Assembly: GCA_947494435.1 (NCBI GenBank)
Contig: CANLUY010000001.1
Coordinates: forward strand, 1,478,001 to 1,542,000
DNA length: 64,000 bases
Reading direction: 5' to 3'
DNA from: an uncultured Litoreibacter sp.
GTDB taxonomy: Bacteria; Pseudomonadota; Alphaproteobacteria; Rhodobacterales; Rhodobacteraceae
The stretch's first letter is position 1. Each line of letters opens with the position of its first letter. The position numbers and the translations under genes are program-made. This document shows, in pieces, positions 33,262 through 58,208 of the stretch. The notes under the pieces were generated by a model. It was not told where the DNA came from and searched no databases. It saw only the letters and a program-made list of their open reading frames with translations.

Positions 33262-33305
33262 TTCGAAACTTCGACATCACGCTATGCTTTCGTTTCTTTC
33301 GTTTT
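33262..33305 (+). promoter_or_regulatory. TTTCG-type repeats upstream of the DeoR gene
   Basis: TTCGAAAC (33262-33269) is followed by a tandem TTTCGTTTC-TTTCGTTTT (33288-33305), and another TTCGAT lies at 33311. The same TTTCGA/TCGAAA words make the palindrome at 34129-34155 before the TRAP genes, which suggests one regulator, the DeoR protein, binds both places. Confidence 0.55.
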
Positions 33306-33332
33306 TATGCTTCGATGGAATGCGGAGGCGTC

Positions 33333-34094
33333 ATGCTCAGTCAGCGGCAACGGAAAATTCTGAATTTGATCGAAGCGCAGGCCCGCGTTCGTGTGGAGGA
33401 TTTGGCGGAGCAATTTGCAACCTCTCCGCAGACCATTCGTAAAGACCTGCAAGTGCTCGCAGAGCTGCACCATGTAGTGCGGTTTCACGGTGGTGCGACT
33501 GTTGTGGGTGGGGTGGAATATACGGCACCGGCAGAGCGAGCGGGCGATGCGCAAGCGGCCAAGCAGGCGATTGGCGCGGCGGTTGCGGGGCGCATACCGC
33601 AGACCTGTGCGGTGTTCTTGAATGCTGGGACGACAACAGCGCAAGTGGCGCGGATGTTGTCGGGGCATCAGCAATTGCGAGTGATTACGGATAACGTTGA
33701 TTTGGCCGCCGAAATGCGTGTGTTTCCAGGGCTTGAAGTGATTGTGCCGGGGGGTGCTGTGCGCCGGTCGGATGGTGCGATCCTTGGGGCGGAGGCGGTG
33801 GATTACATCCGGCAATTCCGCGTGGATTACGCAGTGATCGGGGCGGCTGCCTTGGCGGAAGATGGCACGTTGTTGGACTATGATCTGGCGGAGGTGCAAG
33901 TGTGCCGCGCGATGATGTCCCATGCGCGCCATGTAATTTTGGCGATTGATGCGGGTAAGTTCGGGCGGTCTGCCCCGGTGAAGCTGGGGCATTTGGCGGA
34001 TGTGCATACGGTCGTGACGGATAGTCTGTTTGATCCATGGGCGGCACCCCTGTGCAAAGCCCATGAGGTGGAGCTGGTTCTGGCGGATCGCTGA
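33333..34094 (+). CDS. DeoR-family regulator of the TRAP/sugar locus
   Basis: A 253-residue repressor: N-terminal helix-turn-helix MLSQRQRKILNLIEAQARVRVEDLAEQFATSPQTIRKDL with RFHGGA, then the DeoR sensor domain (NAGTTTAQVARML, GAEAVDYIRQFRVDYAVIGAAALAEDGTLLDYD, MMSHARHVILAIDAGKFGRSAPVKLG). The sensor domain is most like GlpR and CsqR (YihW), the latter being the regulator of the E. coli sulfoquinovose operon. The ATG at 33333 has GGAGG five bases upstream; an ATG at 33315 lacks one. DeoR sensors usually bind sugar phosphates, here perhaps a sulfosugar or its phosphate. Confidence 0.92.
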   Translation: MLSQRQRKILNLIEAQARVRVEDLAEQFATSPQTIRKDLQVLAELHHVVRFHGGATVVGGVEYTAPAERAGDAQAAKQAIGAAVAGRIPQTCAVFLNAGTTTAQVARMLSGHQQLRVITDNVDLAAEMRVFPGLEVIVPGGAVRRSDGAILGAEAVDYIRQFRVDYAVIGAAALAEDGTLLDYDLAEVQVCRAMMSHARHVILAIDAGKFGRSAPVKLGHLADVHTVVTDSLFDPWAAPLCKAHEVELVLADR

Positions 34095-34128
34095 AATCGT
34101 GTCTTGACTCAGAGTTTCGACTTGGCGC

Positions 34129-34155
34129 TAATCGAAAGTAACGCGCTTTCGATTA
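34129..34155 (+). promoter_or_regulatory. Palindromic operator before the TRAP operon
   Basis: TAATCGAAAG (34129-34138) and CTTTCGATTA (34146-34155) are perfect 10-base arms around a 7-base spacer, 40 bases before the first TRAP gene. The CGAAA/TTTCG words match those before the DeoR gene. Confidence 0.75.
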
Positions 34156-34194
34156 AGGGCGCTGGGAAAGATCGCGAAAGATCTCGGGAGGATC

Positions 34195-34785
34195 ATGGCA
34201 CTTATTCTGGGGGCAGCTCGATTGCTGGCGCTGATCAACAGCGTGTTGCTGGCCATTGGCCGGCATCTGGCGATCTGGATGATGGGCCTGATGGTAGTGT
34301 TCATTCTGATCCAAGTTTTCTACCGCTACGCTTTGAACAACGCTTTGCCTTGGCCGGACGAGGCGGCGCGCTTCATGATGTTGTGGCTGACAGGCTTGGT
34401 TGCGCCCACGGCGTATCGTCGAGGTGGGTTCGTCGCGATTGATATGGTCTTGCTGATGATGCCCAAGAAAGTTGGTGCGATCCTTTCGATGCTGTTGTTG
34501 TTCATCGCGTTGATGGTGCTGGTCACGGCGGTGCAGATCGGCTGGGGCGAGGTGACGGGCTTTGGTGGCAGGTTCAAAACGGCCGCGCTTTGGTTGCCGA
34601 CGAATTTCGCCTTCACCGAGTGGTTTCGTGTGCCACGCTCTTGGATGATGGGCTCCCTTTTGGTGGGCGTGACGCTGATGGCGATGGTCAATGTCGAGTT
34701 GATCTTGCGCCAGATCGCGACGCTTCTCGGTCGAGAGGATGATCTGCCGATCATCCCGGAAGCCGCAACATTAGGGGCCGATTGA
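34195..34785 (+). CDS. TRAP transporter small permease (DctQ type)
   Basis: A 196-residue membrane protein with four spans and the DctQ pattern: VFILIQVFYRYALNNALPWPDEAARFMMLWLTGLVAPTAYRRGGFVAIDMV. The C-terminus extends past the last span. GGGAGGATC precedes the ATG. It is the first of three genes of a complete TRAP transporter, which imports carboxylates, sulfonates or acidic sugars using the Na+ gradient and a periplasmic binding protein. Confidence 0.93.
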   Translation: MALILGAARLLALINSVLLAIGRHLAIWMMGLMVVFILIQVFYRYALNNALPWPDEAARFMMLWLTGLVAPTAYRRGGFVAIDMVLLMMPKKVGAILSMLLLFIALMVLVTAVQIGWGEVTGFGGRFKTAALWLPTNFAFTEWFRVPRSWMMGSLLVGVTLMAMVNVELILRQIATLLGREDDLPIIPEAATLGAD

Positions 34786-34786
34786 T

Positions 34787-36073
34787 ATGCTGGTCTGGTT
34801 CCTTCCGCTTTTCCTTTTGTTCCTCTGCATCGGACTGCCGGTCTTCTTCGGACTGGTCGCAGCGCCGGGTATCATGCTGTGGCTGAACGGGCAGGAGAAG
34901 GACATCACGCTGCTCTATCGCAACGTCTACAATGGTATGGACAGCTTCCCGCTGATGGCGATCCCGTTCTTCATGTTGGCCGGCGAGATGATGAACCGTG
35001 GCGGCATCACGATGCGGCTGGTTGAGTTCAGCCAAGCTTGTGTGGGCCACTTCAAAGGCGGCTTGGCGCAGGTGAATATTCTGTCGTCGATGTTGTTTGC
35101 GGGGCTTTCGGGCTCTGCGGTCGCCGATACCTCTGCGCTGGGGTCCATGCTGATCCCGGCGATGGAGAAAGAGGGCTACACGCGGCGGTTTGCGGCGGCG
35201 ATCACGGCGGCGTCTTCGGTCATTGGGCCAATCATTCCGCCGTCAGGCATCATGATTATTTACGCTTATGTGATGGGCGAGTCAGTCGCCGCGTTGTTCC
35301 TTGCGGGCATCGTGCCGGGTGTGATGGTGGGCGTGGGCTTGATGATGATGACGTCCTACATGGCCAATTCCGCGGACTTCCCAAAATCGCGTGAGCGGGC
35401 GACGTGGTCAGAAAAAGGCCAAGCCTCGATCAAAGCCTTCTTCCCGCTTCTGACGCCTGTGATCATTCTGGGCGGCATCTTGGGCGGTGTGTTCACCCCG
35501 ACAGAGGCCGCTGCAGTGGCGGTGTTCTACGCGTTCATCATTTCCATCTTCGTGCTGCGGGAAATGTCGTTGAAAGACCTACCGGATGTGCTGTTGAAAG
35601 CATCGCTGACCTCGTCGGTGGTGCTGCTGCTGGTGGGTGCCGCGATGGCGTTCAAGACAGTTGTGTCCTTGAGTCATGCGCCGGAGACCTTGGCGGCCTA
35701 TATCCTGTCGCTGTCGTCTAACCCGCTGATCTTGCTGTTCCTGATCAACCTACTGCTTTTTATCGTCGGCATGTTCCTTGATGCGGGTCCCGCGATCATC
35801 ATTCTGGGGCCAATCTTGGCACCAATTTTCACCTCGCTGGGCGTCGATCCGGTGCATTTCGCGATCATCATGTCGGTCAACCTGACTGTGGGGCTGGCGA
35901 CGCCGCCGATGGGGCTGGTGCTGTTTGTGGCCTCCTCCGTCTCGGGGGAACGGGTCGAGGCGATCGCGAAAGCAATTTTGCCTTTCCTCGCAATCGAAAT
36001 TGCGGTGATATTCTTGATAACATACATCCCGGCGATTTCGCTGTTCGTGCCCGGGCTGTTCGGCTTTCTGTAA
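34787..36073 (+). CDS. TRAP transporter large permease (DctM type)
   Basis: A 428-residue transport subunit with about 12 spans. Signatures include LSSMLFAGLSGSAVADTSALGSMLIPAMEKEGY, ASSVIGPIIPPSGIMIIYAY, and FTPTEAAAVAVFYAF, and the repeat NLTVGLATPPMGLVLFVASSVSG near the end. It starts one base after the small permease gene stops, so the two are translated together. The fold carries the substrate by an elevator mechanism. Confidence 0.95.
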   Translation: MLVWFLPLFLLFLCIGLPVFFGLVAAPGIMLWLNGQEKDITLLYRNVYNGMDSFPLMAIPFFMLAGEMMNRGGITMRLVEFSQACVGHFKGGLAQVNILSSMLFAGLSGSAVADTSALGSMLIPAMEKEGYTRRFAAAITAASSVIGPIIPPSGIMIIYAYVMGESVAALFLAGIVPGVMVGVGLMMMTSYMANSADFPKSRERATWSEKGQASIKAFFPLLTPVIILGGILGGVFTPTEAAAVAVFYAFIISIFVLREMSLKDLPDVLLKASLTSSVVLLLVGAAMAFKTVVSLSHAPETLAAYILSLSSNPLILLFLINLLLFIVGMFLDAGPAIIILGPILAPIFTSLGVDPVHFAIIMSVNLTVGLATPPMGLVLFVASSVSGERVEAIAKAILPFLAIEIAVIFLITYIPAISLFVPGLFGFL

Positions 36074-36100
36074 ATAACCAAAAGATCCAATGGGAGGATT

Positions 36101-37177
36101 ATGATGAAACTAGGAACCACTTTGAAGGCGCTTGGCCTTGCCGCGATGATGGCAAGCACAAGTGTTGCGGCTTGGGCGGACGGTCATGCGATGACCATTC
36201 GTGCGACTGCGAACTCGAACGAAAACGACGAGGATTATGACGGTCTGGTCGTGTTTAAGAACTACGTGGAAGCGGCCTCCAACGGCGCGATCACGGTTGA
36301 GCTGTTTATCGGTACGCAGCTTTGCGGCAACGGTGCGGAATGTCTGCAAGGCATCGCGGATGGCACGATTGATGTATATGTCTCCACCTCTGGTGGTGCG
36401 TCAGGCATCTTCCCGTTCATTCAGGTTTTGGACCTGCCTTACTTGATGAGCGATGACCGGATTGCTGAGGCTGCATTGGCCAATGGTTCGGAGTTCATCA
36501 CGACGATGCAGGGCATGGTCAAAGAGGCGTCCGGCGACGCGATCCGTCTGATGACCATCGGCAACACGGGCGGCTGGCGCAACTTTGCCAACACGAAGCG
36601 CCGTGTGGCTGAGCCTGCGGATATGGAAGGTCTGAAAATCCGGACTGTTGTGGCTGACCTGCCGCAAGAGCTGGTCAAAGCACTTGGTGCGGCCCCGACG
36701 CCGATCCCATGGCCTGAGCTGTTTACATCGTTCCAGACGGGCGTTGTGGAAGGATCGAAGAACGGGATCACCGACATCATGGGCATGAAATTCCCCGATG
36801 CGGGTCTGCAATATGTGACGCTGGACGGGCACGCATACATGGGTGCGCTGTGGTTCATGAACAACGAGAAGTTCCAGTCCATGGATGATGGCCTGAAGCG
36901 CGTTGTTGTGGACGGGTTCTACCAGTTGCAGCAGGCAACATTTGCGTCACCGAAGCGTAAGTCGATCCAAGCCTATGAAGATTTCGTCGCCGGTGGTGGT
37001 GATCTTTATGTGCCGACACCAGAGCAGAAAGCTGCGTTCAAAGCGGCGGCTGAGCCTGTGTATGGTTGGTTCAAGGACAATGTTGACGGTGGACCAGCGG
37101 CCTTTGATGCGCTGACGGCCTCTGTTGCGGCGGCGGAAGAATCCGTTGGTGCGGCGCGTGATGCGGACTTGAACTAA
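36101..37177 (+). CDS. TRAP transporter binding protein (DctP type)
   Basis: A 358-residue periplasmic protein with signal peptide LKALGLAAMMASTSVAAWA. The DctP family pattern is clear: GTIDVYVSTSGGASGIFPFIQVLDLPYL, MEGLKIRTVVADLPQELVKALGAAPTPIPWPELFTSFQTGVVEGSKNGITDI. The Arg in LKIRT normally pairs with an acidic group of the ligand, which would also suit a sulfonate. Ribosome site GGGAGG precedes two adjacent ATG codons. The DctP ligand cannot be read off, but the locus suggests sulfoquinovose or its glyceride. Confidence 0.93.
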   Translation: MMKLGTTLKALGLAAMMASTSVAAWADGHAMTIRATANSNENDEDYDGLVVFKNYVEAASNGAITVELFIGTQLCGNGAECLQGIADGTIDVYVSTSGGASGIFPFIQVLDLPYLMSDDRIAEAALANGSEFITTMQGMVKEASGDAIRLMTIGNTGGWRNFANTKRRVAEPADMEGLKIRTVVADLPQELVKALGAAPTPIPWPELFTSFQTGVVEGSKNGITDIMGMKFPDAGLQYVTLDGHAYMGALWFMNNEKFQSMDDGLKRVVVDGFYQLQQATFASPKRKSIQAYEDFVAGGGDLYVPTPEQKAAFKAAAEPVYGWFKDNVDGGPAAFDALTASVAAAEESVGAARDADLN

Positions 37178-37183
37178 GATACT

Positions 37184-37214
37184 TGGCGCGGCGGGCTTTG
37201 GGCTTGCCGCGCCA
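37184..37214 (+). terminator. Stem-loop after the TRAP operon
   Basis: TGGCGCGGC (37184-37192) and GCCGCGCCA (37206-37214) form a perfect 9-base stem, seven bases after the binding-protein stop and ahead of a convergent gene. A T-run is lacking, apart from ACTTCTT. Confidence 0.6.
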
Positions 37215-37241
37215 CTTCTTGCGGATCGGTCGTGTGCCGGT

Positions 37242-37709
37242 TCAGCGAAACGGATACATCCAAACTTTGTAATCGGCGATCAGCTCATGCGCGTGGTCAA
37301 TCTGCTCTTTGGTCATCTTCTTGACCACTTCCTCTTGGGAAATCGCCGCGTCGGGGTCGCCTCCGATCGCGCTGAGGGCGTACCACATGTAAGCGCGGGT
37401 CAGATCTGGGGCCGGCATGCCGATGCCCTCCTCGTAGTACCAGCCGATACCCGATTGCGCGCCGGGATGGCCCTTCATGGAGCTTCTGAGATACCACTCA
37501 AACGCGCGGACGGGGTCTTTTTCGACGCCCAAACCCAGCGCGTACATGACGCCGATCAGCTCCTCCGCGTCGGCATTGCCGGAGCGGGCGGCGGGCCAAA
37601 GTGCCTCCCGCGCTTCTTCGAATTTATTGGCTTCCATCAGATCGCGGGCTTGTTCGATATCAGCCGTCGCGGGAAGCGTCATGAGGGCAAGGATGGCAAG
37701 AACGCGCAT
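37242..37709 (-). CDS. Secreted Sel1/TPR-repeat protein
   Basis: A 155-residue protein starting MRVLAILALMTLPATADIEQ, with a short signal peptide and GGAG upstream of the ATG. Three Sel1-like repeats follow: AEELIGVMYALGLGVEKDPVRAFEWYLRSSMKGHPGAQSGIGWYYEEGIGMPAPDLTRAYMWYALSA. Sel1 repeats mediate protein contacts, often in the periplasm. It is encoded antisense between the TRAP operon and the catabolic operon, and its start is only 15 bases from the start of the peroxidase gene on the other strand, so that operon's promoter must lie within this gene or be shared. Confidence 0.85.
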   Translation of the reverse strand: MRVLAILALMTLPATADIEQARDLMEANKFEEAREALWPAARSGNADAEELIGVMYALGLGVEKDPVRAFEWYLRSSMKGHPGAQSGIGWYYEEGIGMPAPDLTRAYMWYALSAIGGDPDAAISQEEVVKKMTKEQIDHAHELIADYKVWMYPFR

Positions 37710-37724
37710 GTCAGTCTCCGTCTG

Positions 37725-38975
37725 TTGGGCGCAGTTTGGCTTGGCTTTGCCGCGCCTGCAATGGGGGACGTGCCTGAGGGCATGTTTGATCCCATCGACG
37801 AGGATATGGCCGCGATTGGGCAGTTGCTGTTTTACGATCCGATCCTGTCGGGGAACCGGAACATCAGCTGTGGGACCTGCCACAACCATGATCATTTCAG
37901 CGCGGATGGCGTCAGCCTAGGCATTGGCGAGGGCGGTCGTGGTGTGGGGCCGAAACGGGTCGCGGTTAAGGGCGAGAACCAGATCAGGAAGCGCATTCCG
38001 CGCAATGCGCAGGCTCTGTTTAATGTTGGTGCGTTGGAGGTGTTCTTTCACGATGGGCGCTTGGGCGCCTCGCCGGATTACGGCAATGGCGTGAACTCCC
38101 CTGCAGAGGAATGGTTGCCGGAGGGGTTGGACTCGCTGCTCGCCGCTCAGGCGCTGTTTCCGATGACCTCGCAATTCGAGATGGCGGGCAACCCAAAAGA
38201 GAACGAGGTCGCAGGCGCAATTCATGACCGTATTGATGCGGCTTGGCCGATTATCGCGAAGCGTGTTCGGGAGATTGATGCCTACGCAGGGATGTTCGCG
38301 GAGCAAGGCATTGAGGAGGCCACAATTGCCGATATCGGCAATGCGCTGGCGGCGTTCATGGATGCGGAATGGCGGTCTTTTGACAGCCCCTATGATCTGG
38401 GCACGATGAATGAAGCGCAGTCGCGCGGGGCGGATTTGTTCTTTGGAGAGGCCGAGTGCAGCACGTGCCACGAGGGGCCGCTGTTTACAGATGAGGATTT
38501 CCATTCCATCGGGCTGCCGCCTTTTGGTCCCGGTCGCACGCGCCGCTTTGATCCGATGCCGCGCGATGTGGGGCGGATGGCGGAAAGTGACGCGTTGGAG
38601 GATGCCTACCGGTTCCGCACGCCGTCTTTGCGCAATGTCGCTATGACAGGACCCTACGGGCATAACGGGGCCTATCCGACGCTGGAGGGGATTATTCGCC
38701 ACCATGCCGCCCCGCTGGAAAGTCTGGATGCGTGGCGGCCTGAGTGGGCGCAATTGCCTTCCGTTCCGTGGCTTCAGAAGGCGGATTTCATCATTCATGA
38801 CGATGTGAGGGAAATGGCGCGGGTGCGGGCGAATATTGACGTCGATATCAAGGCGCTCAGTGATGATGAGATTGCCGATCTGATCGCGTTTCTTGGTGCC
38901 TTGACTGGCAAAACGTCGATCCATGGACGGTTGGGTAAGCCAAGCGCTGTGCCCAGCGGCTTGGAGGTCGACTGA
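37725..38975 (+). CDS. Di-haem cytochrome c peroxidase family protein
   Basis: A periplasmic CCP/MauG-family protein of about 416 residues with two haem sites, CGTCH and CSTCH, the early stretch AIGQLLFYDPILSGNRNISC, RNAQALFNVGALEVFFHDGR, and a C-terminal YRFRTPSLRNVAMTGPYGHNGAYPTLEGIIRHH. The signal peptide LLGAVWLGFAAPAMG is clear, but no ATG or GTG lies in front of it; a TTG at 37725 is the best start. It reduces peroxide or oxidises a partner protein or small molecule. The stop shares its A with the kinase ATG (TGATG), so it is the first gene of the sugar operon. Confidence 0.88.
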   Translation: MGAVWLGFAAPAMGDVPEGMFDPIDEDMAAIGQLLFYDPILSGNRNISCGTCHNHDHFSADGVSLGIGEGGRGVGPKRVAVKGENQIRKRIPRNAQALFNVGALEVFFHDGRLGASPDYGNGVNSPAEEWLPEGLDSLLAAQALFPMTSQFEMAGNPKENEVAGAIHDRIDAAWPIIAKRVREIDAYAGMFAEQGIEEATIADIGNALAAFMDAEWRSFDSPYDLGTMNEAQSRGADLFFGEAECSTCHEGPLFTDEDFHSIGLPPFGPGRTRRFDPMPRDVGRMAESDALEDAYRFRTPSLRNVAMTGPYGHNGAYPTLEGIIRHHAAPLESLDAWRPEWAQLPSVPWLQKADFIIHDDVREMARVRANIDVDIKALSDDEIADLIAFLGALTGKTSIHGRLGKPSAVPSGLEVD

Positions 38976-39835
38976 TGGCTTCGGTTTTGGTTGCGGGATC
39001 CGCCGCGTTGGACTTTGTTTATCAGGTCGACAGCCTACCGGAACGCGCTGAAAAATACGCGGCGGAGGCTGTGGATATAGTTGGGGGCGGATGCGCGGCG
39101 AATGCAGCGGTGGCAATAGCCCGCTTAGGCGGAAAGTCCCAATTATTAGCGAGATTCGGCAAGGATGACGTTTGTGAGATCGTTCTTGGGGATATATTGG
39201 CAGAAAATGTTGACACCTTCCCTTGCGTCATCTCGGAAGGCGCGCGCTCGGCGATGTCATCCGTCTATGTGGATAAATCGGGTGAGCGTCAGATCATGGC
39301 CTTTCGGGGCGCGGGATTGGCGACTGATCCGGCGTTGGACGTCCTGACGGCAGATGCTGTTTTGGCGGATACGCGCTGGCCAGAGGCCGCGAAACGGGCT
39401 TTGGAATTGGCGGTCTCAAAAGGGGTGCCTGCGGTTTTGGACGGCGAAGCGCCGGTGCCGCGTGATATCGCCGGGATCGCGACACATGTGGTTTTTTCCG
39501 AACAGGGTCTTCTCGACTTCACGGGGGTCGGCGATGTGCACGCTGCATATGCCGCATTGGACTTGCCTGGCTGGTGTGCGGTGACTTTGGGAAGCGCAGG
39601 CGTTTTGCATCCGGGCGGCGTGCTGGCGGGGTTCGAGGTTGATGTGAAAGACACGCTGGGCGCGGGGGATGTGTGGCACGGGGTGTTCACGCTGCGGCTC
39701 GCTGAGGGCGCGGATGAGATGGAGGCGATGCGGTATGCCAATGCCGCCGCCGCTTTGAAATGTACGGGGTTCGGGGGGCGCAAAGCTGCGCCTTCGCGCG
39801 CCGCCGTGGAACAGTTTTTGAAAGAGAGAGACTAG
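38975..39835 (+). CDS. PfkB-family sugar kinase, probable 6-deoxy-6-sulfofructose kinase
   Basis: A 286-residue ribokinase-fold enzyme. PfkB signatures are present: GGGCAANAAVAIARLG near the N-terminus and DTLGAGDVWHGVF with the catalytic Asp. Several stretches line up with E. coli YihV (sulfofructose kinase) as I recall it: VLADTRW (YihV VLADVRW), VLDGEAP (VLDGDIT), VVFSEQGLLDFTG (AAFSEPGLARLTG) and AALKCTGFGGR (AALKCTRPGGR). The product would be sulfofructose 1-phosphate, the substrate of the next gene. It starts within the peroxidase stop and abuts the aldolase ATG with no gap. Confidence 0.88.
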   Translation: MASVLVAGSAALDFVYQVDSLPERAEKYAAEAVDIVGGGCAANAAVAIARLGGKSQLLARFGKDDVCEIVLGDILAENVDTFPCVISEGARSAMSSVYVDKSGERQIMAFRGAGLATDPALDVLTADAVLADTRWPEAAKRALELAVSKGVPAVLDGEAPVPRDIAGIATHVVFSEQGLLDFTGVGDVHAAYAALDLPGWCAVTLGSAGVLHPGGVLAGFEVDVKDTLGAGDVWHGVFTLRLAEGADEMEAMRYANAAAALKCTGFGGRKAAPSRAAVEQFLKERD

Positions 39836-40861
39836 ATGCAGCTGACAGCAGGCAAACTTTGGGGCATGCGGCGCATGGCCGACGAAAACGGGTTGTTCAA
39901 GATGACAGCCGTGGACCAGCGCCCGCCGATCAAGGGACCGATTGCGGCGCACTATGGAACCGATGAGGCGCCTTATGAGGATGTCGCGCGGTTCAAAGCG
40001 ATGCTTGTGGAGACGTTGCAGGGGGGTTCCTCAGCGATGCTGTTGGACCCGCATTACGCGATCCCGGTGGGGTTGAAGCATCTGTCGCCCACGAAGGGGC
40101 TGATCGTGACGCTGGAGGATTCTCTGTTTGAGGAGACAGGGATGGGGCGCAAATCGTCACGGATTGATGATTGGGACGTTGGCAAGATCAAGCGGATGGG
40201 CGGGGATGCTGTCAAGGTGCTGGCATGGTACCGGCCGGATGCGTCGGATGAGGTGAACAAGCATCAGAAAGACTGGACGAAGCGCATTGGCGAGGCCTGT
40301 GCGAAGTATGACATCCCGTTCTTGTTTGAGCTGTTGGTGCATCCGTTGGACAGTGATGCGGAGCAGACGTCGGAATATATCGAGATGAATACGAAGCGCG
40401 CGGATGATGTGTTGAAATCCGTGGAGGAGTTTGCCGCGCCTGATTATGGTGTTGACGTGTTCAAGCTGGAAAGCCCGGTGCCTGCAAAGGATGTGACCTC
40501 CACCGACGGCGTGCAGGCGATGTTTGACGAGATGGGGCGCTTGGCCGGCCGGCCTTGGGTGATGCTGTCAGCGGGCGCGGGTAAGCCGGAGTTCAAGCAG
40601 ATTTTGGAGCATGCGTTCGCAGCGGGGGCCTCTGGCTTCTTGGCAGGGCGTGCGATTTGGCTTGATGCGTTTCAAGCCTTCCCCGATTGGGACGCGATCC
40701 GCGTGGGGCTTGAGGGGGAAAGTGCGGCTTATATGGCTGAGATTTCGGCTTTGGCGGATGCGAAGGCTTTGGCGTGGGATCAGCATGCGTGTTGGGGCGC
40801 TGGTGGCGCGCAGTTTGCGCCGGCGGATGCGTCGTTCCGGCATGGGTATGAGGGTCTCTAG
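39836..40861 (+). CDS. LacD/YihT-type class I aldolase, probable sulfofructose-1-phosphate aldolase
   Basis: A 341-residue class I aldolase of the tagatose-bisphosphate/YihT group. FKMTAVDQRPP carries the conserved DQR; the Schiff-base lysine is in DVFKLESPVP (~205); WVMLSAGAGKPEFKQIL and AGASGFLAGRAIWLDA match the phosphate-binding end of YihT (AGASGFLAGRAVW). The expected reaction is sulfofructose 1-phosphate to dihydroxyacetone phosphate plus 3-sulfolactaldehyde. An ordinary tagatose-bisphosphate aldolase is the alternative. The ATG directly follows the kinase stop, and its own stop is followed at once by the isomerase ATG. Confidence 0.88.
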   Translation: MQLTAGKLWGMRRMADENGLFKMTAVDQRPPIKGPIAAHYGTDEAPYEDVARFKAMLVETLQGGSSAMLLDPHYAIPVGLKHLSPTKGLIVTLEDSLFEETGMGRKSSRIDDWDVGKIKRMGGDAVKVLAWYRPDASDEVNKHQKDWTKRIGEACAKYDIPFLFELLVHPLDSDAEQTSEYIEMNTKRADDVLKSVEEFAAPDYGVDVFKLESPVPAKDVTSTDGVQAMFDEMGRLAGRPWVMLSAGAGKPEFKQILEHAFAAGASGFLAGRAIWLDAFQAFPDWDAIRVGLEGESAAYMAEISALADAKALAWDQHACWGAGGAQFAPADASFRHGYEGL

Positions 40862-42214
40862 ATGAAAATCGGATTGCTGCCGCTGGGGCGGCCCACTTTT
40901 GATGTGCCCTATGCCGAAGAGAAGCTGGCGGGCATGTTGGCGGATATTGATGCGTTGGCCTCTCAAGAGGGCCACGAGGTCATCGGGCCGCGCGCGCTGC
41001 TGATGGAGGCGTCGCCGGAAGCATTATCGGAAGTGGCGTCAGCTGATCTGATGTTGGTGTTGCAGGTCACGTTCACAGATGCGTCTTTCGTGGTGGAGGC
41101 CGCCGGATTGGGCGTGCCTTTGGCGATTTGGGCGGTGCCGGAGCCTCGGTTGGGCGGGCGGCTGCGGTTGAATGCGTTTTGCGGGCTGAACTTGGCGGGC
41201 CATGCGTTGGGGCGCAACGGTGTTGGCTTTGGCTGGCTCTATGCTGATCCCGGTGCTGCGGATTTGCCGGGGTTGTTGGCGGGACTCTACAATGTGGCGC
41301 GGTTGGACGGGTTGGCGCCGGGCGTTGAGGCTGTGGAGATGCCGGTGCCCGATTTGAAGATCGCAAGGATCGGGGAGCGTCCGGTTGGGTTTGATACCTG
41401 TGATTACGACAAGGCCGCGTTGAAGGCTTTGACCGGCGCTTCGGTAGATGAGTTGGCTTTGGACGACATGTTCGACGCGGCGCGCGGATTGGACGATGCG
41501 GCTGTTGCGCCCTATCGCGCGAAAGTGGCTGATGTGCCGAACCTTGAGGACATGGATGCGGGCGAGTTGGACCGGTCATTGCGGCTGGCTGGCGCGCTGG
41601 AAATGCTGCGCAGCGAGAACAGCTATGATGCCTTTGCGATCCGCTGCTGGCCGGAGACGTTTACGGAATATGGCGGGGCTGTCTGTGGTCCTGTTTCGAT
41701 GATGGGAGAGGCACGGGTGCCGTGTGCTTGTGAGGCGGATGTCTACGGCGCGGTAACGCAGGCGATCTTGCAGAAGATTGCGGATGCTCCTGTTTTCTTG
41801 GCTGATTTGGTCGATATTGACATGAACGACGACACAGGCGTCGTGTGGCATTGTGGGCAGGCGCCGCTGTCGATGACGGATGATGAGCCGATGGCGACGG
41901 TGCATACGAACCGCAAACAGGCACTCTTGTATGAGTTCACATTGAAGCCGGGACGCGTGACGTTTTTCCGGCTGTCGCAAGCTTATGGTGAGCCGAAAAT
42001 CGTGCTCGGCGGCGGTGAAATGCTGCGCAGCGAAATGGCTTTTACGGGGACCTCGGGCGTGGTGCGGTTCGACGGCGGTGCGGCACGTGTTTTGAGCGAC
42101 GTCATGAACAGTGGTCTGGAGCATCACTTGGCGATTGCCTATGGCGATCACCGCGAGGCTTTGCGCGGGATTGCAGCCGGGATGAGCCTGAACGTGGTGG
42201 AGCTAGGCGCGTGA
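40862..42214 (+). CDS. FucI/AraA-fold ketol isomerase, candidate sulfoquinovose isomerase
   Basis: A 450-residue member of the L-fucose isomerase-related group. The N-terminal domain (MKIGLLPLGRPTFDVPYAEE...ADLMLVLQVTFTDAS) is followed by the catalytic part: AIRCWPETFTEYGGAVCGPVSMM, PCACEADVYGAVTQAIL (metal-binding Glu), DLVDIDMNDDTGVVWHCGQAP (Asp and His). Such enzymes use Mn2+ to interconvert aldoses and ketoses. In this operon the reaction needed is sulfoquinovose to sulfofructose, done in E. coli by the unrelated YihS; FucI-like sulfoquinovose isomerases (SqvD) have been reported as I recall. The stop overlaps the next GTG start (GTGA). Confidence 0.82.
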   Translation: MKIGLLPLGRPTFDVPYAEEKLAGMLADIDALASQEGHEVIGPRALLMEASPEALSEVASADLMLVLQVTFTDASFVVEAAGLGVPLAIWAVPEPRLGGRLRLNAFCGLNLAGHALGRNGVGFGWLYADPGAADLPGLLAGLYNVARLDGLAPGVEAVEMPVPDLKIARIGERPVGFDTCDYDKAALKALTGASVDELALDDMFDAARGLDDAAVAPYRAKVADVPNLEDMDAGELDRSLRLAGALEMLRSENSYDAFAIRCWPETFTEYGGAVCGPVSMMGEARVPCACEADVYGAVTQAILQKIADAPVFLADLVDIDMNDDTGVVWHCGQAPLSMTDDEPMATVHTNRKQALLYEFTLKPGRVTFFRLSQAYGEPKIVLGGGEMLRSEMAFTGTSGVVRFDGGAARVLSDVMNSGLEHHLAIAYGDHREALRGIAAGMSLNVVELGA

Positions 42215-43302
42215 TCAGATACGGAATTATCGGCTCTGGCATGATGGGGCAGGAGCATATTCGCAATATCGCTCTGTTGGATGGTGCGCAGGTCGCGGCT
42301 GTGGCTGATCCAAATGAAGAAATGCGTGCGCTGTCGGTGAAGAACTCAGGCGGTGTCGGTTATGCCTCCATGGAGGAGATGCTCGCGGCGGATGCGTGCG
42401 ACGTGGTGCTGATCGCGGCGCCGAATGATACGCATGCGGGGATCATGCAAAAGTTGCTGGCGACGGATAAGCCGATCCTCGTGGAGAAACCGCTGGCCAC
42501 GACCAGCGCGGATTGCCGCGATCTGTTGAACATGTCGAAGGGCCGTGTGGCGCCGGTTTGGGTGGCGATGGAGTATCGTTACATGCCGCCATTGCAGCGG
42601 TTGATGCAGGCGGTGGATCAAGGGGCGGTGGGGACGCCGCGCATGATGTCGATCCGCGAGCACCGCTTTCCGTTTTTGCCAAAGGTTGATGATTGGAACC
42701 GGTTTAATGCACGGACCGGCGGGACCTTGACTGAGAAATGTTGCCATTTCTGGGACCTGATGCGTCTGGTTTTGAAGTCTGATCCGGTGCGGGTCTATGC
42801 CTCCGCCGGGGTGGATGTGAACCACCGCGACGAGCGCTATATGGGCCAGATGCCGGATATTATCGACAATGCATATGTCGTGGTGGATTTCGAGAATGGC
42901 GCGCGGGGCATGCTGGATTTGTGCATGTTCGCGGAAGGCTCCTTCTGGCAAGAAACCATTGCTGTCACAGGCGAAAAGGCGCGGGTGGAGGCATTTGTGC
43001 CGGGGCCTGCACGGTTCTCTCCGGATGGGAAAGAGCGTGAGGCGGAGTTCGTGATGTCCTTGCGTGCGTTGAAGGAAGAGGTGCGCGAGGTGGTGCATGT
43101 GCCGGAACATATTCTGGCGGCAGGGGATCACCATGGATCGACCTTTTTCCAGCATGAGAAATTCTTGGAACTGGTCCGCACGGGCAAAGGTGTACCTGAA
43201 GTGTCTTTGATGGATGGATACTGGTCTGTGCTGGTGGGCGAGGCGGCAGAGGAATCTGCGCGGTCTGGCCAAGCGATTGATCTTAGAGGGAAAGGGCCAT
43301 GA
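42211..43302 (+). CDS. Gfo/Idh/MocA-family protein, candidate NAD-dependent sulfoquinovosidase
   Basis: A 363-residue Gfo/Idh/MocA enzyme: Rossmann start YGIIGSGMMGQEHIRNI, the EKP motif in ILVEKPLATT (catalytic Lys), and a C-terminal alpha/beta domain with RTGGTLTEKCCHFWDLMRLVL. There is no secretion signal. Most members oxidise sugars with NAD(P), but one branch (GH188) cleaves sulfoquinovosides by transient oxidation with bound NAD+. This locus has no GH31 sulfoquinovosidase, so this gene is the natural candidate for releasing sulfoquinovose from its glyceride. A plain sugar dehydrogenase is the alternative. GTG start, overlaps on both sides. Confidence 0.82.
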   Translation: MIRYGIIGSGMMGQEHIRNIALLDGAQVAAVADPNEEMRALSVKNSGGVGYASMEEMLAADACDVVLIAAPNDTHAGIMQKLLATDKPILVEKPLATTSADCRDLLNMSKGRVAPVWVAMEYRYMPPLQRLMQAVDQGAVGTPRMMSIREHRFPFLPKVDDWNRFNARTGGTLTEKCCHFWDLMRLVLKSDPVRVYASAGVDVNHRDERYMGQMPDIIDNAYVVVDFENGARGMLDLCMFAEGSFWQETIAVTGEKARVEAFVPGPARFSPDGKEREAEFVMSLRALKEEVREVVHVPEHILAAGDHHGSTFFQHEKFLELVRTGKGVPEVSLMDGYWSVLVGEAAEESARSGQAIDLRGKGP

Positions 43303-44285
43303 GCTTTGGGGTAATGCCGGACGGGTCAGAAGTTGCGCGGCACCGGATAGAAGGCGGCGGGCTGGTCGCGCATGTCCTCAGCTATGGGGCGGTTTTGCAA
43401 GATTTGCGGCTGGAAGGCCATGATGCACCGCTGGTCTTGGGCTTTGAGGAGTTTGCGCCTTATCTGACGGATTCGCCCTATTTTGGAGCCATTGCGGGAC
43501 GTTGTGCGAACCGGATCGGCGAAGGGCAATTCAACGTGGATGGCAAAAGCTACCAACTGGATCGCAACTTTCAGGAGCGGCACCATTTGCATGGGGGACG
43601 TGCGGGCGTTGGTAAGCGCAACTGGACGGTCGAGAATGTTGCCAAAGACCGGATCACGCTGAAGATTGAGCTGGCAGATGGTGAGATGGGGTATCCCGGC
43701 AATATGATTGCGCGGGTGAGCTATGCCTGCCTTGAGGGCGGGGTTTTTGACATTCAGATCAGCGCGGAAACTGATGCGCCGACGCTCTGTAACTTTGCGC
43801 ATCATACCTACTGGAATCTCGATGGCGGTTTGACGACTGATGATCATGAGATGCAGGTCGATGCGGATCGCTGGACCGTGGTGGATGAGGGCTTCATTCC
43901 AACGGGTGAGAGCCGTGACGTGACCGGCACTCGGTACGATTTCCGCAAGATGCGGCCGATCAAGGATGACGTGTTTATTGACCACAACCTGTGCGTTTCT
44001 GATACCCGGCAGAGCTTACGGAAAATTGGCGTTTTGGTGTCGCGGAAATCGGGGGTCTCGATGGAAATGCGCTCGACGGAGGCGGGGTTGCAGGTCTATG
44101 ACGGGTTCAAGATGGATGTGGAACCGACAGGGCTTGGTGGGCGTTCCTACGGTAAGAATTCAGGCGTCGCGCTGGAACCACAAGTTTGGCCCGATGCGAT
44201 CAATCATGAGGGGTTCCCGAGCGCGGTTCTGCGACCCGGTGAGACCTACAACCAACATACGCAATTTGCGTTTTCCAAGGGGTAA
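43299..44285 (+). CDS. Aldose 1-epimerase (mutarotase), YihR-like role
   Basis: A 328-residue GalM-family enzyme that speeds anomer interconversion. The catalytic pair is seen as the His in NFAHHTYWNL (~170) and a Glu near the end in VALEPQVWPDAIN; NRIGEGQFNVDGKSYQLDRNFQERHHLHGG is the family's substrate-binding stretch. In E. coli the sulfoquinovose operon has the mutarotase YihR. It could also serve galactose from the neighbouring locus. The ATG overlaps the stop of the Gfo/Idh/MocA gene (ATGA). Confidence 0.9.
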   Translation: MSFGVMPDGSEVARHRIEGGGLVAHVLSYGAVLQDLRLEGHDAPLVLGFEEFAPYLTDSPYFGAIAGRCANRIGEGQFNVDGKSYQLDRNFQERHHLHGGRAGVGKRNWTVENVAKDRITLKIELADGEMGYPGNMIARVSYACLEGGVFDIQISAETDAPTLCNFAHHTYWNLDGGLTTDDHEMQVDADRWTVVDEGFIPTGESRDVTGTRYDFRKMRPIKDDVFIDHNLCVSDTRQSLRKIGVLVSRKSGVSMEMRSTEAGLQVYDGFKMDVEPTGLGGRSYGKNSGVALEPQVWPDAINHEGFPSAVLRPGETYNQHTQFAFSKG

Positions 44286-44291
44286 GTGGCG

Positions 44292-45734
44292 ATGAGCTAT
44301 ACGAAATATCTGAAAGAAGCGAACCTGATTGACGGCGCATGGGTCGGCGCGGATAGCGGCGAGACGATTGATGTGACCAACCCCGCGACTGGCGAGCTGG
44401 TCGGCACGGTGCCCAATTGCGGTGACGCAGAAACCGGCCGCGCGATTGATGCGGCGGCGGCGGCGTTTGACGGGCTGGCAGGCATGGCGCTGATCGAGCG
44501 CGTTGGTTTGCTTTGGAAAATGCATGACGCGCTGATGGATAATCAGAAGTCGCTGGCCGAGTTGCTGACCATCGAGATGGGTAAACCCTTGGCGGAAGCT
44601 ATGGGCGAGATCGGCATTGGCGCGGCTTATGTGCGTTGGTTCGCTGAGGAAGTCCGCCGTGCCAAGGGCGAGATTGTGCCTGCGCCGACGAATGGCCGCC
44701 GGTTCCTTGTGACGAAGCACCCGATTGGTGTGGTGGGGATGATCACGCCTTGGAACTTCCCGTCCTCAATGCTTGCGCGCAAGATTGCGCCCGCTCTGGC
44801 GATTGGCTGTTCGGTGGTGGCGAAACCTGCGACGGCGACACCCTATAGCGGGTTGGCTTGGGGCGCATTGGCCGAGGAGGTTGGTTTCCCGAAAGGCGCT
44901 GTGAACATCCTGACGGGCTCCGCGCGCAAAATCGGCGGCACGATCATGGCCGATGCGCGGGTGCGCAAGGTAACGTTCACAGGCTCGACAGACGTGGGCA
45001 AGGAATTGATCCGGCAGTCGGCGGATACGGTCAAGAAAGTCTCCATGGAGTTGGGCGGCAACGCGCCATTCCTTGTGTTTGACGATGCGGATGTGGATGC
45101 GGCGGTGCAGGGCGCGATGGTGTCGAAGTTCCGCAATTCCGGCCAGACTTGTGTCTGTGCGAACCGGATTTACGTCCAGGCGGGTGTCTATGATGAATTC
45201 GTTGAGAAGCTGAAAATGGCGACGGCTGCGATGAAGGTCGGCAACGGTCTTGAGGACGGGGTCGAGCAGGGGCCGTTGATTGATATGGATGCAGTCGAGA
45301 AGGTCGAAGAGTTCATTGAAGATGCGAAAGCCAAGGGTGGCAAGGTCGTGCAAGGTGGCGCGCGGCATGGCAATGGGCACAGCTTCTTTGATCCGACGAT
45401 TATCACCGAGGCGACGCAGGACATGATGTTTGCCAAGGACGAGATTTTCGGCCCCTTGGCACCTGTCTTCCGGTTTGAAGACGAGGACGATGCGATTGCC
45501 TGGGCGAATGACACGGATTTCGGGCTGGCTTCTTATGCCTACACACGCGACGTGGGCCGTATCTTTAAGCTGAATGAAAAGCTGCAATATGGCATGATCG
45601 GGATTAATTCCGGGCTGATCACAACCGTTGAGGCTCCGTTTGGTGGCGTTAAGGACAGTGGGCTGGGCAAAGAAGGCGGCAGCCAAGGTCTAGAAGACTA
45701 CATGGACACGAAATACACGGCTGTGGATTTCTGA
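44292..45734 (+). CDS. Aldehyde dehydrogenase (GabD-like), candidate sulfolactaldehyde dehydrogenase
   Basis: A 480-residue NAD(P)-dependent aldehyde dehydrogenase of the succinate-semialdehyde group: VVGMITPWNFPSSMLARK, FTGSTDVGKELI, general-base Glu in MELGGNAPFLVF, and nucleophile Cys in NSGQTCVCANRI. GabD-like enzymes oxidise 3-sulfolactaldehyde to sulfolactate in the sulfo-ED pathway, and this gene ends the operon whose aldolase should release that aldehyde. Succinate semialdehyde is the alternative substrate. The ATG at 44292 has GGGG nine bases upstream; a GTG two codons earlier is closer to the stop of the epimerase. Confidence 0.87.
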   Translation: MSYTKYLKEANLIDGAWVGADSGETIDVTNPATGELVGTVPNCGDAETGRAIDAAAAAFDGLAGMALIERVGLLWKMHDALMDNQKSLAELLTIEMGKPLAEAMGEIGIGAAYVRWFAEEVRRAKGEIVPAPTNGRRFLVTKHPIGVVGMITPWNFPSSMLARKIAPALAIGCSVVAKPATATPYSGLAWGALAEEVGFPKGAVNILTGSARKIGGTIMADARVRKVTFTGSTDVGKELIRQSADTVKKVSMELGGNAPFLVFDDADVDAAVQGAMVSKFRNSGQTCVCANRIYVQAGVYDEFVEKLKMATAAMKVGNGLEDGVEQGPLIDMDAVEKVEEFIEDAKAKGGKVVQGGARHGNGHSFFDPTIITEATQDMMFAKDEIFGPLAPVFRFEDEDDAIAWANDTDFGLASYAYTRDVGRIFKLNEKLQYGMIGINSGLITTVEAPFGGVKDSGLGKEGGSQGLEDYMDTKYTAVDF

Positions 45735-45744
45735 TCTGACTGGA

Positions 45745-45769
45745 GAGAGGCGCTGCGGCGCCTCTTTTT
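45745..45769 (+). terminator. Rho-independent terminator ending the sugar operon
   Basis: GAGGCGC-TGCG-GCGCCTC (45747-45764) is followed by five T residues, 12 bases after the aldehyde dehydrogenase stop. Confidence 0.9.
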
Positions 45770-52009: not shown

Positions 52010-52885
52010 TCAGCGTTGGCCGTAATAGAGCCCGACCGTGTGTTCCGCCTCTGCGAAAAACAGCCAACGCGTGGTCAGCGCACCTGCGATATGTAGCAGC
52101 ATGGCCAGCAAGACCGTCAGGTGACTTGCGCCCACGACAAGCAGTAGGATCAGTGGCAGAAGGCTCAGCAGAAGCGATCCGACGATGCGCAATTTGCTGG
52201 CGTGCTTGCGGCCGATGACGTGGACCATTTCTTTCATCAGATAGTTCTTCGATGAATGCGGTGCCTCGAACATGCGGACCTTGCCGATGCGGCCAAGGCC
52301 GGTTGCCGTCTCGATCGTGGAGCCTTCCTCAGCGAAGCGTTTGTCGCCGATCACCCATGCCGCAATTTGCAGCAGGCCGATGATCATCAGTAGGGGGATT
52401 GCCAAGTAAAGTTGGTTTGTCAGCATCGCGCCGCCAGTGACCGCATAGCCCACAAAGATCAGTGGGGTGGTCCAATGGTGCCAGCGTGGGACGGTTTTGA
52501 TCTGCGTGTAGATCATGGACGTGCCGATAACCGTCAGCAGTGACAAGGCCGCGCCCAAGAGACCGAGTATGCCGATGCGGACGTTCCAGAAGACCAGCGC
52601 GGCACCATAGACCGCCATGACCGTCAGGGTCAGAACGGCGAGGCAGCCTTCGCGGGACAGCCAGCTGGTTTTCCACTGGCTGAATGCTTTCAGCGCGCGT
52701 TTTGGGTTTCCAAGGTGGAAGGTCGATGAGATCAGGCCACCAACCGCCAAGATATACGCGATGGCGAAGAAGACGAAGGCGGTGAAGCCGGAGACATCGG
52801 GTTTGCCGAGGCCCAGAAACATCAGCATGCCGAAGCCGAGGCCGGAGAAGACGGTGAAGAAGATAATGGAAGGTGCGGGATGCAT
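52010..52885 (-). CDS. soeC: Sulfite dehydrogenase membrane anchor, DmsC family
   Basis: A 291-residue integral membrane protein with eight spans, of the DmsC/SoeC family (PSIIFFTVFSGLGFGMLMFLG; STFHLGNPKRALKAFSQWKTSWLSREG). It anchors the catalytic and iron-sulfur subunits on the inner face of the membrane and passes electrons to the quinone pool. The ATG shares its last bases with the stop of soeB (TGATG). Reading the trio as SoeABC rather than a DMSO or polysulfide reductase rests on the neighbouring xsc, pta and exporter genes and the missing Tat signal on the large subunit. Confidence 0.88.
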   Translation of the reverse strand: MHPAPSIIFFTVFSGLGFGMLMFLGLGKPDVSGFTAFVFFAIAYILAVGGLISSTFHLGNPKRALKAFSQWKTSWLSREGCLAVLTLTVMAVYGAALVFWNVRIGILGLLGAALSLLTVIGTSMIYTQIKTVPRWHHWTTPLIFVGYAVTGGAMLTNQLYLAIPLLMIIGLLQIAAWVIGDKRFAEEGSTIETATGLGRIGKVRMFEAPHSSKNYLMKEMVHVIGRKHASKLRIVGSLLLSLLPLILLLVVGASHLTVLLAMLLHIAGALTTRWLFFAEAEHTVGLYYGQR

Positions 52886-53625
52886 CAGAGTTTCTCCAGC
52901 GTTTTGTCGAGCCAGCCGAGGAAACCTTTGGGCTCAGCGGCTACGGGTTCCAAGAGAGGGGCGAGGATGTCGATCTGCTCGTCCTTGGGACGCGGTGGCA
53001 GGTATTTGTTGACGGGCTTGGTGCCTTGTTCGGGCATCAGGTCGAAACCGCCGCGTTCTTTTACCAGCTTGCTGACGTCGGAGGTTTCGTCGCCAAGGTC
53101 GCCGAAATGGCGCGCGCCTGCGGGGCAGGTGCGTACGCACGCCGGCTGGCGGTCTTCCTCGGGCAGGTTTTCATTGTAGATACGGTCGACGCAGAGGGTG
53201 CATTTCTTCATTACGCCTTCGGCTTGGTCCAGCTCCCGCGCGCCGTAAGGGCAGGCCCATGCGCAGAGGCCGCAGCCGATGCAGTCGCTCTCGTTGACCA
53301 GCACGATGCCGTCTTCGACGCGTTTGTAGCTGGCGCCCGTGGGGCAGACGGTGACGCAAGGTGCGTCTTCGCAATGCAGGCAGCTTTTCGGGAAGTGGAT
53401 GGTCTGCGCGGCACCTTGGTCCGGCTGTACTTCGTAGCTGTGGACGCGGTTCAGGAAGGTGCCCGACGGGTCCTTGCCATAGGCGTTTTGGTCGGACAAA
53501 GCCGCGCCGTAGTTTTCTGTGTTCCAGCCTTTGCAGGACACAACGCAGGCATGGCAGCCGACGCAAGTGTCGAGGTCGATGACAAGGCCGAGCTTCTTCT
53601 CGGTGTGAGCGGGGAGTTGGGTCAT
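52885..53625 (-). CDS. soeB: Sulfite dehydrogenase iron-sulfur subunit
   Basis: A 246-residue ferredoxin-like subunit with four [4Fe-4S] motifs: CVGCHACVVSCKGWN, CLHCEDAPCVTVCPTG, CIGCGLCAWACPYG and CTLCVDRI...CVRTCPAG. No signal peptide. It wires the molybdenum subunit to the membrane anchor. The ATG at 53625 (MTQLPAHTEKK) overlaps the soeA stop (ATGA); the frame is open five codons further but into soeA. Confidence 0.93.
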   Translation of the reverse strand: MTQLPAHTEKKLGLVIDLDTCVGCHACVVSCKGWNTENYGAALSDQNAYGKDPSGTFLNRVHSYEVQPDQGAAQTIHFPKSCLHCEDAPCVTVCPTGASYKRVEDGIVLVNESDCIGCGLCAWACPYGARELDQAEGVMKKCTLCVDRIYNENLPEEDRQPACVRTCPAGARHFGDLGDETSDVSKLVKERGGFDLMPEQGTKPVNKYLPPRPKDEQIDILAPLLEPVAAEPKGFLGWLDKTLEKL

Positions 53626-56438: not shown

Positions 56439-56449
56439 GGCGAGATCTC

Positions 56450-57211
56450 CTAGTTGGATACGGTGCGGATGAGCCCGAGCGAGGCGAGGCCAAGCAAGAG
56501 CGTCAGGCAGAAAGGTTTGTAATAAGTCTCCAAGCGCGGAATGAAGAGCGCGCGGCCTGCGTAAAGGCCAAGAAGCGTCGGGATGATGAAGAACAGACCG
56601 CGTGCGATGGCGGTTTGGTCCATGGTGCCGATGGTGATGTGCGTGATGAGACCGAGGATGCCTGCGCCCAGAAGGTAGATGCTGAGCGTGCCGCGCATTG
56701 TGCGGGCGGGCAGATTGCGTGCCAGCGTGTAGAGCGCGATCAGCATGCCACCTGCACCCGCGAAACCGGTGACGATCCCTGCGCTTAGGCCAGTGCCATA
56801 AGTGCCTAGCGTTGTTGCAAGAAAAGGTAGTTTGACCTTCGCAAGCTGGCTGATCGCGAGCACGATCAGGATCGACAGGGCAAGCGCTTTGGACGTGCTG
56901 GTGGCCAACTGCATGTTGATCAGCAGGCCGATGGGCAAACCGACTGCGGAGCCGATGATGAGACCCTTTGCTGTCGGCTTATCTGCATCCGCGATGCCGC
57001 CTTTGAACATGGCCAGCGAGCCCGCCATTTCCAAGAACCATAGCATCGGGATCAGGGCGAGTGGGGGCAAGATGAATAGGGCGGAGGCCATGACGACCGC
57101 CGAGAGGCCGAAACCGGAAAAGCCACGCACCATGGCTGCCACAAAAACGATGGCGCTGAGCAGCAGCACCTCGACCTGTGTCAGATTGGTGAGATCGGCC
57201 AGCAGGTTCAT
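56450..57211 (-). CDS. tauE: TauE/SafE-family anion exporter
   Basis: A 253-residue membrane protein with about eight spans and the two-fold repeat of the family: VAAMVRGFSGFGLSAVVMASALFI and GIVTGFAGAGGMLIALYTLA. TauE/SafE proteins are thought to export sulfite, sulfate or sulfoacetate. Between pta and soeA it offers a second way to remove sulfite, next to oxidation. The ATG of this gene overlaps the pta stop by four bases. Confidence 0.9.
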   Translation of the reverse strand: MNLLADLTNLTQVEVLLLSAIVFVAAMVRGFSGFGLSAVVMASALFILPPLALIPMLWFLEMAGSLAMFKGGIADADKPTAKGLIIGSAVGLPIGLLINMQLATSTSKALALSILIVLAISQLAKVKLPFLATTLGTYGTGLSAGIVTGFAGAGGMLIALYTLARNLPARTMRGTLSIYLLGAGILGLITHITIGTMDQTAIARGLFFIIPTLLGLYAGRALFIPRLETYYKPFCLTLLLGLASLGLIRTVSN

Positions 57212-58146: not shown

Positions 58147-58184
58147 GGTGGTCTCTCCCAAAACACGGCCTTTTCACCGCGAAA

Positions 58185-58208
58185 CCCGCCCCAATTTCTT
58201 GGGACGGG
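58185..58208 (-). terminator. Stem-loop between xsc and pta
   Basis: CCCGCCCCAA (58185-58194) and TTGGGACGGG (58199-58208) pair with one mismatch around TTTC. It lies 25 bases after the xsc stop, without a U-run, and may lower expression of pta and the later genes relative to xsc. Confidence 0.55.

Follow-up and report, generated by a model that had tools for sequence, protein, structure and literature searches.

A probable hybrid sulfo-EMP operon for sulfoquinovose in an uncultured Litoreibacter, with a possible TRAP-based uptake module

Plant and algal membranes abound in sulfoquinovose (SQ), a sugar that contains sulfur. In a stretch of 64,000 nucleotides (hereafter the window) from the 3.89 Mb genome of an uncultured Litoreibacter sp. 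(GenBank assembly GCA_947494435.1, contig CANLUY010000001.1, positions 1,478,001 to 1,542,000), a run of genes at 33315-45769 very probably represents a hybrid operon of the sulfoglycolytic Embden-Meyerhof-Parnas type (sulfo-EMP) for SQ and SQ glycosides. It consists of a DeoR-family regulator, a tripartite ATP-independent periplasmic (TRAP) importer, seven tightly packed genes and a terminator, and its open frames lie where a first-pass annotation of this DNA had put them. That annotation had proposed a sulfo-EMP-type SQ locus whose isomerase, glycosidase, final step and importer were taken from other families, a proposal that now appears very likely in view of, for example, a GH188 glycosidase (SqgA) and a kinase of the YihV clade. 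We infer the substrates and reactions from protein families, from the SQ-contact residues of the GH188 enzyme and from a gene set that is conserved in related genomes. Judged by the isomerase, the nearest named relatives belong to Litoreibacter, with up to 90% identity.

The SqgA glycosidase and the predicted pathway

The Gfo/Idh/MocA protein encoded at 42211-43302 (+ strand) is predicted to be a GH188 NAD+-dependent sulfoquinovosidase (SqgA). In a search of solved proteins it matched 8zn9 with 393 bits and the deposited SqgA structures 8qc3 and 8qc2 with 369 and 364 bits, while the next-best solved protein after these three reached 88 bits only. The SQ-touching residues of ArSqgA include K107, Y136, R166, L170, K172, E189, H193 and H321 (PMC10755693); a manual mapping, for which an offset of 13 was taken from the alignment with the solved SqgA, equates these with K93, Y122, R152, L156, K158, E175, H179 and H307 of the window protein. 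All eight positions, plus one nearby glutamate, are invariant in 71 of 71 SqgA sequences (the window protein and 70 complete homologues from the named loci described below), whereas Glu163 of that paper maps one position off and was excluded from the eight contacts. The first-pass annotation had left this protein unrecognised as a glycosidase; identified as SqgA by homology, it provides the strongest evidence of the locus, and its conserved contacts are the best single argument for SQ, which is a well-supported candidate substrate.

In the proposed pathway, the TRAP system would import an SQ glycoside or SQ, and SqgA would free SQ through a transient, NAD+-dependent oxidation at C3. A GalM-type aldose 1-epimerase (43299-44285, +), the putative SQ mutarotase, would provide the reactive SQ form, which a presumably metal-dependent aldose-ketose isomerase of the AraA/FucI fold and the SftI/SqvD kind (40862-42214, +) would convert to sulfofructose. 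A PfkB-family kinase of the YihV clade (38975-39835, +) is expected to turn sulfofructose into sulfofructose 1-phosphate, and a class I aldolase of the DeoC/LacD superfamily and PRK12858 type (39836-40861, +) to cleave the latter into dihydroxyacetone phosphate and sulfolactaldehyde. Finally, a GabD-like aldehyde dehydrogenase (ALDH; 44286-45734, +) would oxidise sulfolactaldehyde to sulfolactate, and the DeoR-family regulator (33315-34094, +), 35% identical to E. coli CsqR (YihW), is the likely repressor of the operon. Pfam was consistent with the assignments for the ten window proteins checked, and a CCP_MauG domain was found in addition.

The distribution of these genes was surveyed in 295 genomes of the window's family, its own genome included and mostly one per genus. 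SqgA (E 1e-70) was found in 144 of them, the isomerase in 25 (at least 400 bits; 39 match at E 0.001) and the aldolase (>500 bits) in 20; the isomerase is present in all 20 aldolase genomes, and SqgA in all 25 isomerase genomes. A scan of GTDB genomes gave 253 relatives, the best 80 of which were kept as named loci, belonging by title to Rhodobacterales, Hyphomicrobiales and a few other groups. In these best 80 of 253 loci, tblastn at 1e-8 matched PfkB in 75, the aldolase in 72, SqgA in 71, and the TRAP proteins DctP, DctM and DctQ in 65, 63 and 59, respectively; a Sel1-repeat protein and a cytochrome c peroxidase (CCP)-like protein, both described below, were each matched in 61, DeoR in 47, and the mutarotase and ALDH in 46 each. 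Isomerase, kinase, aldolase and SqgA occur together in 63 of the 80, although all counts on these loci are rough, since contig ends truncate many of them and paralogues may account for a few weak matches. The gene order recurs in related genomes, and thus the arrangement of the cluster is not due to chance.

Core enzymes and competing substrates

Pfam recognised in the isomerase the FucI C-terminal domain alone, and its sole NCBIfam match was the sulfoquinovose isomerase SftI, with 232 bits; the same model gave 239 to 285 bits for three cluster homologues and 89 and 91 bits for two distant paralogues. An AlphaFold model (pLDDT 91.5, from 42 sequences) matched arabinose isomerases (AraA; E 1.7e-20, TM up to 0.59) and the fucose isomerase 1fui (E 2e-13, TM up to 0.53) in a fold search, whereas phmmer and a profile search against solved structures returned no match. 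SqvD, the SQ isomerase of the sulfo-EMP2 pathway, is homologous to FucI and has been modelled with an Mn2+ site (PMC9594981). YihS had no match at 1e-5, either in the window or among the 80 named loci. Distant isomerase paralogues (~30%) at loci L063 and L064 are accompanied by an aldehyde dehydrogenase, a class I aldolase of another kind and genes of the ATP-binding cassette (ABC) type, and these loci may represent a different pathway.

A tree of 33 kinases unites those of the clusters with YihV and with kinases from Shinella, Neorhizobium and one genome of the family in one clade (support 95/91), which excludes RbsK, LacC and seven further PfkB proteins of the window's genome; an eighth PfkB match of that genome was left out of the tree, in which several end branches are long, that of LacC above all. 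The kinase had been called YihV-like on the strength of LADxRW, VLDG, FSExGL and ALKCTxxGGR, taken as YihV motifs; all four are present in YihV as well as in the window kinase, and the grouping with YihV rather than LacC upholds the assignment. The motifs alone are no proof, since much of them is shared by 2rbc ('Sugar kinase'), a protein that we take to be from Agrobacterium, that was left out of the tree, and that scores 160 bits to the window kinase against 162 for YihV. YihV residues K27, N109 and R138 are presumably sulfonate contacts; among 20 sampled cluster kinases, K occupies position 27 in all 20 and R position 138 in 19. All three residues also occur in the kinases of Shinella, Neorhizobium and G149 and are therefore no proof of SQ either.

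The aldolase falls in the PRK12858 subfamily, which NCBIfam names 'tagatose 1,6-diphosphate aldolase' (325 bits, cut-off 184), and its best solved match is 8tnf (311 bits), named solely a DUF2090 protein. AGASGFLAGRA-W, on which its likeness to YihT had been based, is confirmed as common to both proteins, LacD having GVLCGRATW instead; but orthology to YihT did not hold up, as identity is 27% (76 bits), compared with ~30% to Lactococcus LacD. The aldolase is separated from LacD in the tree, where YihT has an end branch of 7.49 and an unreliable placement, so that a suggested tree comparison with LacC and LacD agrees with the proposal for the kinase, which does not group with LacC, whereas the aldolase goes with neither LacD nor, demonstrably, YihT. 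As for the class II aldolase SqiA, the cluster enzyme is of the DeoC/LacD class I, and no search for SqiA was made elsewhere in the genome. The closest non-orthologous aldolases (~50% identity) are encoded on plasmids of Shinella and Neorhizobium and in one genome of the family, and adjoin sugar kinase and ABC importer genes; the Shinella locus further contains a short-chain dehydrogenase/reductase (SDR), an enzyme of the mandelate racemase type and a TSUP transporter.

Several observations weigh against a sulfo-EMP operon for SQ. The SftI score of the isomerase lies far below the curated cut-off of 700 bits, the aldolase scores higher with LacD structures (121 bits) than with YihT (at best 66), and YihV N109 is replaced by A in the window kinase, N being found in 15 of 20 sampled cluster kinases. 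The PRK12858 aldolase is missing at E 1e-20 from 5 of the 25 isomerase genomes, and no match was obtained for the kinase in 5, and for the aldolase in 8, of the 80 named loci. Moreover, the GH188 contacts are known from gluco-configured SQ and the sequence leaves sulfofucose compatible, while the Shinella locus of the ~50% aldolase looks like a sulfofucolytic one. The loci with isomerase and kinase and without a PRK12858 aldolase (E 1e-20) are L050, L057, L060, L061 and L062 (genomes G201, G256, G014, G209 and G059); no substitute aldolase was found by eye in L060, L061 and L062, and none emerged from the gene content of five named loci that lack an aldolase match (L103, L117, L125, L141 and L142).

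A sulfofucose locus would follow an EMP-like scheme, in which isomerisation to sulfotagatose and phosphorylation precede cleavage by an enzyme resembling tagatose-bisphosphate aldolase. We consider it improbable, although the company of the Shinella aldolase (sugar kinase, SDR, mandelate-racemase-type enzyme and TSUP transporter) speaks for it, as does a Paracoccus pair of PfkB and PF01791 proteins that was considered for an EMP-like route; in the same paper, that pair was uninduced and an Entner-Doudoroff route was demonstrated (PMC12421959). No mandelate-racemase or SDR protein was found by Pfam among the ten window proteins tested, and the cluster contains the GH188 SqgA, which recurs together with the same TRAP system in loci of the sulfoquinovose monooxygenase (sulfo-SMO) type. 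An ordinary pathway for tagatose or another sugar phosphate, with an accidental sulfonate link, is very improbable: the NCBIfam label of the aldolase favours it, but the protein gets 126 bits on TIGR01232 lacD, whose cut-off is 432, the kinase and LacC do not group together (LacC, however, sits on a very long branch), and SqgA accompanies the isomerase in every one of the 25 genomes. A sulfo-EMP2 cluster proper (SqvD, SqiK, class II SqiA) is hardly credible even with an isomerase of the SqvD/SftI kind, because the aldolase is of class I and the mutarotase is GalM-type, not SqvB (DUF4867). A strict sulfo-EMP2 label for the cluster was ruled out by the aldolase class.

The TRAP importer and its Sel1/MauG-like neighbours

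The TRAP importer consists of the small permease DctQ (34195-34785), the large permease DctM (34787-36073) and the solute-binding protein DctP (36101-37177), all on the + strand; DctP, which has homologues in sulfo-SMO loci too, is a putative binder of SQ or an SQ glycoside. The seven-gene run, at about 37722-45734 on the + strand, is joined by 1- or 4-base overlaps or zero gaps and begins with a MauG/CCP-like di-haem cytochrome c enzyme with two CxxCH motifs (37722-38975, +; approximate start). Regulator, full transporter and run were all located at the coordinates given by the first-pass annotation, whose listed genes are present, but which had overlooked a gene at 37242-37709 (- strand) that diverges from the CCP gene and encodes a Sel1-repeat protein with an N-terminal signal-like segment (by eye). 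The CCP frame is open from 37287, with a secreted-protein-like start near 37722; its extension antisense over the Sel1 gene (37287-37722), seen also in many relatives, probably reflects codon bias and blurs the CCP start. After the last gene, which ends at 45734, the previously noted rho-independent terminator (45742-45769, +) was seen by direct reading and was stable in a folding test (-20 kcal/mol, z -3.65; none of 200 shuffles was as stable); a consensus terminator scan, with 15 terminator-like sites listed against 14.3 expected, did not include this element.

In the survey of 295 genomes, Sel1 homologues (at least 190 bits) were found in 77, and 76 of these have SqgA, compared with 68 of the 218 others (odds ratio 168, kinship ignored). 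A control for shared ancestry, made with the sulfonate enzyme Xsc that the window also encodes, gave odds ratios of 1.8 with SqgA (102/188 vs 42/107) and 4.2 with Sel1 (65 of 77 Sel1 genomes vs 123 of 218), which indicates some ancestry signal, far below the link between Sel1 and SqgA. Physical linkage alone is no explanation, since Sel1 and SqgA lie on different contigs in 14 of the 76 genomes (draft assemblies). The Sel1 gene is absent from 3 of the 25 isomerase genomes and from 68 of the 144 SqgA genomes, and hence is not essential to SqgA-type SQ use.

Forty Sel1 loci away from the isomerase, from 40 of the 77 genomes, were read. Within the stretch read, a MauG/CCP-like gene occupies the opposite strand in all 40, DctP is found in 33 and SqgA in 24. 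In 27 of the 40 loci, SmoA-, SmoB-, SmoC- and GntR-type genes are found together, and all 27 have DctP; the Smo genes were named by Pfam families and gene order and not compared with characterised Smo proteins. SmoC is nearby in 28 of 34 loci of genomes without the isomerase and in none of 6 of isomerase genomes. Locus L165, for example, has the order SqgA, GntR, SmoC, SmoB, SmoA, DctQMP, CCP/Sel1. Apart from one 40-residue match at a contig end, the DctP proteins of the Sel1 loci share 68 to 84% identity with the window DctP. One importer beside two unrelated SQ routes is good evidence that the TRAP system would carry SQ or SQ glycosides.

The best NCBIfam match of the haem enzyme is a MauG-like family, with 231 bits against a cut-off of 340. 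The TRAP importer and the divergent MauG-like di-haem/Sel1 pair may quite possibly form a dedicated alphaproteobacterial SQ uptake module that serves either hybrid sulfo-EMP or sulfo-SMO, with the haem enzyme and the Sel1 protein as a new periplasmic component of sulfosugar use; this proposal is put forward tentatively. The pair may act before or during import, for example in an oxidative step on a sulfolipid-derived substrate or on a partner protein. In the literature searched, no description was found of a TRAP/Sel1/MauG-like module common to SQ loci, and the papers retrieved for SQ and TRAP transporters do not, judged by their abstracts, deal with SQ import; an earlier report of the TRAP genes may nevertheless exist. 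In two loci a gene for a PhyH-type dioxygenase, possibly an alternative SQ oxygenase, lies between DctP and the CCP-like gene (L157:7631-8353 and L062:13913-14605), and further PhyH-type matches occur in L047, L069, L077, L100, L172, L176, L178 and L188.

Fate of the sulfonate and relation to known systems

The product sulfolactaldehyde is supported by the cluster of Aliiruegeria haliotis, where a protein 61% identical to E. coli YihU adjoins DeoR divergently and exceeds the NCBIfam cut-off for sulfolactaldehyde 3-reductase (424 vs 348 bits); this is the sole YihU match across the 80 loci. The genome of the window also encodes the sulfopyruvate decarboxylase ComDE, with ComD narrowly over its cut-off (149.7 vs 147.95 bits) and ComE at 248 bits against 221.5. 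The comDE genes lie near HisD-like, SDR, alcohol dehydrogenase (ADH) and LldD-like genes at locus L234 (G000:C1:328500-345000, positions 5807-11067), a probable locus for 2,3-dihydroxypropane-1-sulfonate (DHPS) and sulfolactate, in which we take the HisD-like gene to be of the HpsN type. In the window itself, Xsc is encoded at 58233-60002, over its NCBIfam cut-off, and at 52010-56438 are a molybdopterin enzyme, an iron-sulfur protein and a membrane protein, which we assume to be a Soe-like sulfite dehydrogenase, although no NCBIfam model names them Soe. Together with a pta-like gene and, assigned by eye, a TSUP-like permease and a MocR-type regulator, they form a likely sulfoacetaldehyde/sulfite operon at 52010-61814 (- strand), 6 kb downstream of the cluster. 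With ComDE, Xsc and the Soe-like candidate in the same genome, full mineralisation of SQ by the host is plausible. A route through SuyAB is unlikely here, since the search with PF04295 gave one match in the genome, a 501-residue protein read as UxaA-like.

The cluster resembles the E. coli yih operon in its DeoR/CsqR-type regulator, YihV-clade kinase and class I aldolase, but no match to YihS, YihQ, YihU or YihP was found in the window, and its aldolase is distant from YihT. SqgA and a GabD-like dehydrogenase are shared with the sulfo-EMP cluster reported for Arthrobacter AK01, while the importer is a TRAP system here, of the major facilitator superfamily in E. coli and an ABC system in Arthrobacter AK01. 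The isomerase shares the FucI/AraA fold of SqvD (SftI), known from the sulfo-EMP2 and transaldolase (sulfo-TAL) pathways and its only NCBIfam match; in contrast to sulfo-EMP2, its SftI score is far below the cut-off, and the families of the cluster's aldolase and mutarotase differ from those of SqiA and SqvB. The sulfo-SMO-type clusters of related genomes, such as L165, have the TRAP transporter, the SqgA family and the Sel1/MauG-like pair in common with the window, but SmoABC-type genes replace isomerase, kinase, aldolase and ALDH, and the regulator is of the GntR/UTRA type. SmoA, SmoB and SmoC gave no match at 1e-10 in the 80 named loci and none among ten window proteins, the rest of the genome not having been searched.

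The composition of the cluster had been regarded as new, which the literature does not bear out: two papers already describe hybrids of sulfo-EMP and sulfo-EMP2 components (PMC9594981, PMC12890257), and the legend of Figure 5c of the 2023 GH188 paper (PMC10755693) names Jannaschia faecimaris, a bacterium with almost the same set of genes. In our comparison, J. faecimaris DSM 100420 has homologues of DctQMP, Sel1, CCP, PfkB, aldolase, isomerase (65% identity to that of the window), SqgA (77%), mutarotase and ALDH, but gave no DeoR match in the stretch examined. Thus, the enzyme types of the cluster were known before in other combinations, and what is possibly new is that the TRAP importer and the MauG-like/Sel1 pair accompany sulfo-SMO clusters too. 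If real, this module would be a genetic marker for SQ uptake. In addition, the presence of the isomerase in 25 of 295 genomes indicates that a second, sulfoglycolytic route recurs in the family, which would release C3 sulfonates or pass them on via Xsc.

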